From: an uncultured Clostridia bacterium
Lineage (GTDB): Bacteria; Bacillota; Clostridia; Christensenellales; Borkfalkiaceae
Direction: 5' to 3'
NCBI GenBank assembly: GCA_947589385.1
Contig: CANPZW010000003.1
Span: forward strand, 1 to 50,877
DNA length: 50,877 bases
Shown: piece after piece, positions 18,091 through 23,200 of the stretch
Layout: each line of letters begins with the position of its first letter
Position numbering within the stretch: the first letter of the stretch is position 1
Made by a program: the position numbers and the translations under genes
The notes under the pieces: generated by a model
The model's input: the letters and a program-made list of their open reading frames with translations, nothing else
The model's database searches: none
Told to the model about the DNA's origin: nothing

Positions 18091-19167
18091 ATGAACAACG
18101 GCAAGGTTTATTTAACGTTGCAAAACGGCAGGGAATTTCAGGGAACGCGTTTCGGCGCGGACGGCGAAACGGTGGGCGAGCTTGTGTTCACCACGGGTAT
18201 GACGGGGTACATCGAAACGCTTACCGACCCCAGCTATTACGGGCAGATTGTCACACAGACGTTTCCGCTTATAGGCAACTACGGAATGATATCCCCCGAC
18301 GAGGAAAGCAAAAAGCCGTGGGTATCCGCTTATATCGTCCGTGAAAAATGCGACGCCCCGTCTAATTTCAGGGCGGAAGAAACGCTTGACAAATTCCTTA
18401 AAGAGAAAAATATCATAGGGATTTACGGCATAGATACGCGCGAACTGACGAAAATCGTGCGCGAGGCGGGCGTTATGAACGCGGCGATAACTTCTAAACC
18501 GTTGAAGAACCTAAACTCCGTCGGCGCTTACTGCATAAAAGACGCGGTAAGAAGCGTAACCTGCGAAAAAGTTGAATACTGCGGCGACCCTGACGGTCTG
18601 AAAATCGCTGTATGGGACTTCGGCGCGAAAGAAAACATAATCCGCGAACTTGTAAAGCGCGGTTGCCGCTGTATAAGAGTGCCTTCCTTTTATAACGCCG
18701 AACAGATTTTATCCCTCGGGGCAGACGGGCTTATGCTTACGAACGGTCCGGGCGACCCCGCGGAGAACGTTGAAATTATTGAAAATCTTAAAAAATTGGC
18801 AGGTAAATTGCCCATTTTCGGAATTTGTCTCGGACACCAGCTTTTTGCGCTTGCCATGGGCGGAAAAACCGCGAAAATGAAATACGGTCACAGAGGAGCT
18901 AACCAGCCCGTCAAAGATTTGGAAACGGGCAGGGTCTATATAACCAGCCAGAACCACGGCTACGAAGTAATTTCGTCGAGTTTACAGGGGATAGGCAGGC
19001 TAACGTACGTGAATGCGAACGACAACACCTGCGAAGGCTTTGATTATCCAGAGCTGAACGCATATACCGTTCAGTTTCATCCCGAGGCGTGCGGCGGACC
19101 GCAGGACGCTTCGTTTCTGTTCGGTAAATTTATCGCAAAAGTAAGGGAGGACAAGCGCAATGCCTAA
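18091..19167 (+). CDS. carA: Carbamoyl-phosphate synthase small subunit (glutaminase)
   Basis: CarA hydrolyses glutamine and passes ammonia to CarB to make carbamoyl phosphate for pyrimidines and arginine. The 358-residue protein has the CarA-specific N-terminal domain (FGADGETVGELVFTTGMTGY, later YGIDTRELTK) and a class I glutamine amidotransferase domain with Cys246 in GICLGHQ, His330 in QFHPEA and Glu332. GAGGAAG lies ahead of the ATG. The 3' end overlaps carB by 8 nt. Expression is probably set by the leader at 17777-18036. Confidence 0.96.
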   Translation: MNNGKVYLTLQNGREFQGTRFGADGETVGELVFTTGMTGYIETLTDPSYYGQIVTQTFPLIGNYGMISPDEESKKPWVSAYIVREKCDAPSNFRAEETLDKFLKEKNIIGIYGIDTRELTKIVREAGVMNAAITSKPLKNLNSVGAYCIKDAVRSVTCEKVEYCGDPDGLKIAVWDFGAKENIIRELVKRGCRCIRVPSFYNAEQILSLGADGLMLTNGPGDPAENVEIIENLKKLAGKLPIFGICLGHQLFALAMGGKTAKMKYGHRGANQPVKDLETGRVYITSQNHGYEVISSSLQGIGRLTYVNANDNTCEGFDYPELNAYTVQFHPEACGGPQDASFLFGKFIAKVREDKRNA

Positions 19168-22100: not shown

Positions 22101-23200
22101 GGCTTGAATGTACGGACGTGGCAAGACTTTCTTCCAACTCGGAGATTTTCAAACTTATGGACGAGGGGAAGATAGACTACGTCGTTTATACCGGTAAAAC
22201 GGATATAGAATCCATAACCAATTATATAAGTCTTCACCACCATGCGATTTTGCTGGGAATTACCGTTCTGACCTCGCTTGACACGGCTAACGCGCTTGCG
22301 GACGTAATAGCGGGCAGGTATAACCAGTTCAATACCGAACTTGTGGATATCAATAATTTAAGAAAGGAAAAGCTGAAACTCGAATTTTGCAAGATGCACA
22401 GTTGCGGCAACGACTATATTTTCTTCAATAATATGGACAACGCCGTAACCTGCCCTGAATCGCTTGCGATAAATTTCTGCGATAGACATTCCGCAATCGG
22501 CGGCGACGGAATCGTTATGATTGAAAAATCAGGGATTGCCGACGCAAAAATCAGGGTATTCAACGGCGACGGAAGCGACGGCGGAATGGCTGCCAATCCT
22601 TTAAGGTGCGTTGCTAAGTATCTTTATGACAACAAGCTTGTAAGTTCCGATGATATCGCCGTAGAAACGTGCAGCGGCGTGAAAGCTTTGAAAGTAAGTT
22701 CTTTCAACGGAATGGCGAGCTCGGTTTCGGTAAATCTCGGAAAGTTTGAATGTGAAATAGGTAGAGCTTTTCCCGCAACAGACGACGAATATATAAAAAC
22801 TCTCATAAAAGAGAATAATTATACATTTGTGAACGTGGGCAATAATCACTGCGTGATGTTCTGCGACAAGGTTGACGACATAAATTTGGAGGCTTTGGGG
22901 CAGTATCTGAACGATTCGGGCAGTTTCCCCAAGGGCATTTATGTGGAATGTGTGAGAGTGGTGAACGAATTGACCGTTAAAATGCGCGTTTGGGAAAAGA
23001 GAAACGGCGAAACTCTGTCATGCGGCACAGCGGCAGCCGCGGCTGCCGTAGCGGCTGTCGAAAACGGCAGATGTCTGCGCAACGCGCCTATTACCGTAAA
23101 ACTGAAAGGCGGCGATTTGTTTGTAAACTGTCTTGAAAACGGTGAAGTTGAGTTGGACGGTCCCGTCAAACTTTCATTCAAGGGTATGATTGAAATTTAA
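19160..23200 (+). CDS. carB-dapF: Fusion of carbamoyl-phosphate synthase large subunit and a diaminopimelate epimerase-like domain
   Basis: Residues 1 to about 1065 are complete CarB: two ATP-grasp halves ([23 protein letters not shown] and [21 protein letters not shown] start the two pre-ATP-grasp domains) and a C-terminal MGS allosteric domain. From about residue 1072 a second protein continues in frame without stop: [18 protein letters not shown] is the start of DapF. The DapF part is full length (about 275 residues). The first catalytic Cys, expected in MCGNxxRC, is Ala1144 in MAANPLRC, whereas the second, Cys1288 in LSCGT, is kept. Other changes are NPH to NNH, WER to WEK and GTG to GTA. 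CarB should be active; epimerase activity is doubtful. It overlaps carA by 8 nt and the next gene by 1 nt. Confidence 0.93.
   Translation: [1346 protein letters not shown]

Follow-up and report, generated by a model that had tools for sequence, protein, structure and literature searches.

We analysed a stretch of 50,877 nucleotides from an uncultured Clostridia bacterium of the family Borkfalkiaceae (GCA_947589385.1, contig CANPZW010000003.1, positions 1 to 50,877; referred to as the window) and identified in it a gene, carB::dapF (19160..23200, + strand), in which CarB, the large subunit of carbamoyl-phosphate synthase (CPS), is fused in frame to a domain of the diaminopimelate (DAP) epimerase DapF that has lost its first catalytic cysteine. 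Comparison with relatives suggests a model, which we regard as reasonably probable, according to which an ancient bifunctional CPS-epimerase was the starting point and the DapF part became, in the genus of the window, a non-catalytic regulatory or scaffold domain.

The fused gene is a single open frame of 1346 codons with an ATG start in the open reading frame list of the window, with zero stop codons between the CarB and the DapF parts. The CarB part (residues 1-1048; 19160..22303, +) contains both ATP-grasp halves and the oligomerisation domain (Pfam, NCBIfam) and matches TIGR01369 over residues 2-1048 with 1410.2 bits against a cut-off of 1027; it includes the allosteric MGS domain (residues 952-1037; 22013..22270, +; Pfam), the effector loop of which is remodelled. 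A junction linker (residues 1049-1074; 22304..22381, +) carrying the motif NTELVDIN at 22331-22354 leads into the DapF domain (residues 1075-1344; 22382..23191, +), which matches TIGR00652 of NCBIfam with 210 bits against a cut-off of 114.65, models as folded and is predicted to be catalytically incomplete. Pfam recovers on the fused protein the two ATP-grasp halves, the oligomerisation domain, MGS and DAP_epimerase in two stretches, i.e. both PF01678 lobes. With one open frame and both NCBIfam models above cut-off, the position and the in-frame fusion described in a first-pass annotation of this DNA are borne out. The full-length DapF-like domain it had reported is found as a fold but not as a complete enzyme, the first catalytic cysteine being gone; this catalytic gap, a second, intact DapF in the genome and the wide spread of the fusion had been overlooked. 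Since the whole-genome search of the window genome (estimated completeness 97.65%, 30 contigs) revealed no second CarB above the family cut-off, the fused protein is very probably the only CPS large subunit of the cell.

DapF residues are numbered here as in the H. influenzae enzyme, for which the available text of PMC8225329 describes the roles of most of them. The alignment places Ala at the position of the catalytic Cys73 (residue 1144; 22589..22591), Tyr at that of the substrate-binding Asn190 (residue 1261; 22940..22942) and Lys at that of the substrate-binding Arg209 (residue 1280; 22997..22999), and shows the second catalytic cysteine, Cys217, to be kept (residue 1288; 23021..23023; all + strand). 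N11, N64, N157 and E208 are retained, leaving the DAP-contact set N11, N64, N157, N190, E208 and R209 incomplete through N190Y and R209K. Intact fused domains show the first-cysteine motif CGN[GA]xRC, from which the window sequence, with its Ala at position 73, deviates. DapF requires two cysteines, and in the genus of the window C73 is replaced by Ala in all 13 distinct domains, C217 being present in 12 of 12; one of the 13 domains lacks the C-terminal part, and L144-L147 were assigned to the genus by similarity, not taxonomy. According to the available text of PMC4227774, replacing both cysteines of E. coli DapF by alanine abolishes the epimerisation of DAP. The epimerase job is likely done in the window genome by a standalone DapF of 281 aa, encoded on another contig, which carries both catalytic cysteines, as do all 27 standalone DapFs compared.

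We found the fusion to be widely distributed. Searching with the MGS and DapF parts as query revealed junction-spanning open frames in at least 123 of 396 genomes of the order, belonging to 18 families, a few of these matches (e.g. G020, G210, G399, G123) covering only part of the query. A junction profile (90 columns, 37 sequences), to which fused genes give full-length matches with E ≤2.6e-38 and standalone DapFs half-length ones, detected the same junction in at least 58 of 391 genomes of the class and in 15 of 299 genomes of the phylum, two of the latter being single-contig genomes (G977, G1001); the samples of order, class and phylum overlap in some genomes. From a scan of a named genome collection we used the best 80 of 412 confirmed loci. 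This collection contains the fusion in Ruminococcus sp. FC2018, and among the best 80 loci the taxon labels comprise Clostridia, Clostridiales, Oscillospiraceae, Ruminococcaceae, Ruminococcus, a few vaguer ones and one Treponema bin; two of the loci (L146, L170) are identical in sequence to the loci L042 and L060. Across the order loci, 106 of 107 junction sequences align without gaps over 46 columns, the 107th (L119) having been cut out at the wrong place, and the eight-residue linker motif occurs in similar form in 92 of the 106 junctions and exactly in 57. In a tree of 78 hand-picked rows, all 49 fused DapFs are on one side of a single branch (SH-aLRT 90) and the standalone DapF of the window genome falls into a different clade. 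One ancient fusion event is the simplest reading of these sequences.

Because the same architecture recurs in more than 100 other genomes, the fusion is not a product of chance or misassembly. The window genome is incomplete and distributed over 30 contigs, but with the same junction in order, class and phylum, in two single-contig genomes and in Ruminococcus sp. FC2018, and with no stop at the junction, the chance that an assembly or binning error or stop-codon read-through explains the gene is negligible. The view that it might simply be a read-through fusion of neighbours, left open in the first-pass annotation, is rejected on the same grounds, and relatives with a stop and a separate dapF start at this junction were not found, at least 123 listed places in the order being open. 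A stop separating carB from dapF was seen in two loci only, L108 (G204:C13) and L109 (G399:C21), in which a distant second carB paralogue is followed by a dapF with its own start (TAAGGAGAATATATG in L108); this adjoining dapF has both catalytic cysteines, and the fused copy of those genomes carries C73S. We considered these two loci as a split state of the fused gene and rejected this, the carB being a distant paralogue and the dapF grouping away from the fused DapFs. A viral origin was likewise discarded, a single scan of viral contigs with the MGS-DapF part having revealed no relatives. The Treponema label belongs to a metagenome bin containing a CarB-DapF fusion (L221; WQUW01000014.1), which probably represents a Clostridia contig with a wrong label, or else a transfer.

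Fused domains with both catalytic cysteines (intact) and those lacking one or both of them (broken) differ in the genomes in which they occur. Among the 108 fused order genomes fetched (15 of the 123 were left out), 38 have an intact fused domain and no other DapF and 59 a broken one together with another DapF, compared to eight broken without and three intact with another DapF (Fisher p 9e-18, the rows being phylogenetically non-independent); another DapF was here scored by proxy, as at least three PF01678 stretches per genome. DAP dehydrogenase (Ddh) bypasses DapF, and a full-length Ddh is encoded in five of the eight broken order genomes without other DapF. In 22 genomes behind loci of the named collection (best 80 of 412), the fused copy is the sole DapF in all 11 intact cases; another DapF is present in seven of the 11 broken ones and Ddh in three of the other four. 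Pooled over the chosen genomes tested for Ddh (30 plus 10), the enzyme is found in eight of 12 broken genomes without other DapF versus one of 16 with one (p 0.0012); G238, which has Ddh, stands outside this count, its fused gene not being among those fetched. On a CarB tree of 106 rows, built without L070 and L119 because their CarB part is too short, cysteine loss requires at least six changes. A single fused DapF was seen with Cys73 kept and Cys217 lost (L118, G072); it also carries E208S and N157E, and its genome has no other DapF and has DAP dehydrogenase.

Outside the genus of the window, broken domains retain nearly all residues that bind DAP. The residue and loop counts given here leave out L006 and L013, whose genomes are represented by other rows, the truncated L057 and L110 and two duplicates; the first four were also left out of the comparison with the 27 standalone DapFs. 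In the 103 distinct broken domains outside the genus of the window, N190 and G218 are each conserved in 102 of 102, E208 in 101 of 102, R209 in 100 of 102, N64 in 101 of 103, N157 in 100 of 102 and N11 in 95 of 103. Position 73 is occupied by Ala (57), Gly (25), Ser (19), Thr (1) or Cys (1), the lone Cys73 row having lost Cys217 instead; Cys217 is kept in 92 of 102 of these domains and lost in ten. The domains of the window's genus have been altered further, showing Ala for G74 in 13 of 13 and Pro for G76 in 12 of 13 distinct domains, Tyr or Phe for N190 in 12 of 12 and Lys for R209 in nine of 12. Changes are also observed in the neighbouring MGS domain, which in E. coli binds uridine monophosphate, inosine monophosphate and ornithine, the E. 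coli CPS dimer being formed by interactions of the regulatory domains (available text of PMC6245113). All 68 intact fusions have an STSSKG-like effector loop (STSSKGRxPxRDSVKIRRKA type), compared to 27 of the 115 broken fusions; the remaining 88 broken fusions, including that of the window, have a rebuilt loop, which in the window protein is unlike the intact type. L151 and L070, which run into contig ends, are treated as fused, L151 standing outside the MGS count. As the loop is rebuilt in broken fusions only, the MGS change is nested inside the DapF loss, although a shared ancestor may account for most of the 88 rebuilt loops.

The broken domain appears to be maintained as a folded unit. For the window protein, a model of the C-terminal 801 residues reaches a predicted local distance difference test (pLDDT) score of 85 and a predicted template modelling (pTM) score of 0.81, that of the Ruminococcus counterpart 87 and 0.84, and Foldseek recovers DapF (2otn_A, E 4.1e-29, TMt 0.78). 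For the pair with the lowest synonymous rate (dS 0.75) within the genus of the window, the ratio of nonsynonymous to synonymous rates (dN/dS) is 0.107 for the DapF domain versus 0.024 for CarB, and for a pair in which both cysteines are serine (dS 0.40) it is 0.024 versus 0.023; in many of the other pairs dS is high or saturated. Judged by sequences and models, with the catalytic residue lost and fold and selection retained, the fused DapF domain would thus qualify as a pseudoenzyme.

Our data suggest the following course of events. A single fusion event, early in Clostridia, is the most likely origin, and its first product would have been a bifunctional enzyme; many lineages, among them Ruminococcus sp. 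FC2018, apparently still have no DapF other than the fused copy. Cys73 would have been lost mostly where another meso-DAP route existed, i.e. a standalone DapF or DAP dehydrogenase, and the domain would have been kept as a non-catalytic attachment to the allosteric MGS domain, first with its DAP pocket and later with a new one. Because the pocket still looks DAP-binding in most broken lineages, the domain is likely to serve there as a ligand-responsive regulatory domain or as a scaffold for CPS dimerisation. In the genus of the window, where the pocket is remodelled further (G74A, G76P, N190Y/F, mostly R209K) and the MGS loop rebuilt, the domain most likely serves as a structural or regulatory module whose ligand has changed or been lost. 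Of the two roles compatible with these observations, ligand sensing and scaffolding, we favour sensing in the lineages with a kept pocket and a scaffold or altered-ligand role in the genus of the window. The first-pass annotation had proposed that the fusion may link wall-precursor or lysine state to carbamoyl-phosphate supply; this would fit, indirectly, because the DAP pocket is kept in most broken lineages and the MGS loop changes only there.

Several observations weigh against this model. Within the window's genus, dN/dS of the DapF domain exceeds that of CarB by a factor of 2.4 to 4.5 in seven pairs (the eighth being saturated and several having high dS). The link between cysteine loss and another DapF is not independent of phylogeny: on the CarB tree 45 broken rows form one clade, which includes the family of the window, broken throughout. 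A test of this link by independent pairs on the tree offered only five pairs, of which none to two agree and rarely one is opposed, and is underpowered and not significant. Ddh occurs in four of 11 intact genomes tested and is thus no clean marker, and four genomes (G302, G394, G221 and that of L178) have a broken fused domain, no other DapF and no Ddh. In addition, the family of the window can, as its sequences suggest, replace or lose the whole fused gene. We tested 21 family genomes in which the fusion was unlisted or incomplete or which have low completeness: four have a fused CarB, four an unfused CarB (G383, G365, G312, G374) and 13 no CarB above cut-off, three of the latter (G005, G019, G023) containing carB or fusion fragments in short frames. 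In a tree of 34 hand-picked rows, the unfused CarBs of these four genomes cluster with the L108/L109 paralogue, a long branch separating them from all 28 fused CarBs, and they show no DapF remnant beyond chance-level matches. Five genomes of the window's genus (G009, G017, G018, G035, G218; 85 to 97% complete) have no CarB above cut-off and possess a standalone DapF; the genus seems at times to lose CPS as a whole.

These observations bear on a rival explanation, according to which the fused DapF in the genus of the window is a decaying, functionless leftover tolerated given an intact DapF elsewhere in the genome. The loss of Cys73 and of pocket residues speaks for it, as do the dN of the domain, which exceeds that of CarB in all eight window-genus pairs, and the existence of relatives that have no CarB or an unfused one of another type. 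We nevertheless consider a leftover unlikely, as dN/dS stays well below 1 both in the lowest-dS pair of the genus and in the other broken lineage, the DapF-to-CarB ratio of dN/dS is similar in pairs of intact fusions (1.5 to 3.3, n=4), C73A and G74A are shared by all 13 distinct domains of the genus and G76P by 12, the domain models as folded, the broken state spans a clade of 45 rows and the 21 family genomes tested revealed no fused-type CarB that had shed its DapF.

Two further explanations assign a catalytic role to the domain. One-cysteine relatives in the wider fold carry out eliminations, as exemplified by 3-hydroxyproline dehydratase compared to proline racemase, and the single-cysteine domain might correspondingly be another enzyme that acts on a different substrate, e.g. 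by one-base elimination or racemisation. The frequent retention of Cys217, complete in the genus of the window, would agree with this, but the residues contacting the distal DAP carboxylate (N64, N157, N190, R209) are kept outside this genus, arguing for the same ligand, and Cys217 is itself lost in ten of 102 domains, so that we judge such an activity improbable. A bifunctional window protein, its fused domain still acting as a DAP epimerase through a modified mechanism, is hardly to be expected: the two-cysteine fused DapF is the only DapF in many relatives, and Cys217, Glu208 and Asn11 remain in the window domain, but Cys73 is Ala, Asn190 is Tyr and Arg209 is Lys, the genome encodes a standalone DapF with a full active site, and the double-alanine variant of E. 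coli DapF is inactive (available text of PMC4227774).

Returning to the preferred model of a non-catalytic regulatory or scaffold domain, a more specific version can be put forward only tentatively: the catalytically dead DapF might be a DAP sensor that took over the allosteric control of CPS from the nucleotide site of MGS, binding another ligand or being purely structural in the genus of the window. If true, CPS would be tuned by the binding of LL- or meso-DAP, so that the provision of pyrimidine (UDP-MurNAc) and arginine would follow that of the wall building block. A considerable fraction of the sampled Clostridia has a lysine/peptidoglycan enzyme attached to the CPS control domain, and the lineages form a natural series from a sole intact DapF via a broken domain with intact pocket to a remodelled pocket with rebuilt MGS loop, providing a clear test of the change from enzyme to regulator. 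For annotation this calls for caution, as a fused 'DapF' in these genomes may not be an epimerase, and a dapF that seems missing elsewhere is hidden inside carB.

Both halves of the fused protein represent known families; the combined architecture, its distribution and the repeated non-catalytic conversion are absent from the literature searched, a scope outside which preprints and most subscription papers lie. Compared to CarB (TIGR01369), the window protein shows the complete domain order with carA directly upstream and differs by approximately 300 extra residues after MGS and by an effector loop unlike that of intact fusions. Compared to DapF (TIGR00652), it has the full fold, both PF01678 lobes and the second catalytic cysteine, lacks the first cysteine, is changed in at least two substrate contacts and is fused to CarB. 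Among the 50 listed Foldseek structures no CPS chain carrying DapF was found, CPS and DapF being matched separately. Human CPS1 resembles the window protein in having the CPS large chain within a longer polypeptide, and CAD is a further multidomain CPS protein; in these, the fused partner is the glutaminase of CPS itself or an enzyme acting later in pyrimidine synthesis rather than one of lysine/peptidoglycan synthesis. The bifunctional DapF/glutamate racemase of NF038284 is a DapF-family relative with a second role, but the window protein, with 98 bits against a cut-off of 350, is not a member. A functional precedent is the E. coli DapF-RppH complex (PDB 6d13): in the available text of PMC4227774, DapF is a dimer and retains its binding to and stimulation of RppH when alanine replaces both cysteines, showing that DapF can regulate another enzyme without catalysis. 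There DapF is a free-standing active enzyme that acts as a partner, whereas the window DapF is covalently joined to CPS.

The fusion is part of one gene string consisting of carA, carB::dapF, a cysteine desulfurase gene and thiI, all on the + strand. Directly upstream, carA (18091..19167), encoding the small (glutaminase) CPS subunit of 358 aa (NF009475, 433 bits), shares the eight bases of its 3' end with the start of the fused gene. Downstream, the start of the NifS/IscS-like cysteine desulfurase gene (23200..24327) overlaps the stop of the fused gene (TAATG), and thiI (24331..25485), encoding the tRNA 4-thiouridine synthase, is the last gene of the string. Among the best 80 of 412 loci, desulfurase and thiI follow the fusion in 12, all of closer relatives, and no match was found beside the fusion in the more distant loci with enough flank. 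A promoter-like site upstream of carA (17777..17805, +; TTGACT-17-TATAAT, 11/12) and a terminator-like hairpin after thiI (25532..25561, +) are consensus matches only. Searching 15000-26000 revealed no known RNA elements at Rfam gathering scores. Between the promoter-like site and carA, a frame of 61 aa (17824-18009) ends within a further terminator-like hairpin (18004-18028), and frame and hairpin together are a possible attenuator; a tblastn search (E 1e-3) for the frame as a conserved leader peptide gave no match among the best 80 of 412 loci, some of which do not include that region. Further upstream on the - strand, 14443-16293 encodes a protein of 616 aa with a PadR-type regulator domain, the only domain recovered by the domain search, beyond which lie a long stretch rich in proline and glutamine and, at the C-terminal end, hydrophobic segments; this suggests an unusual PadR protein that is perhaps membrane-linked.

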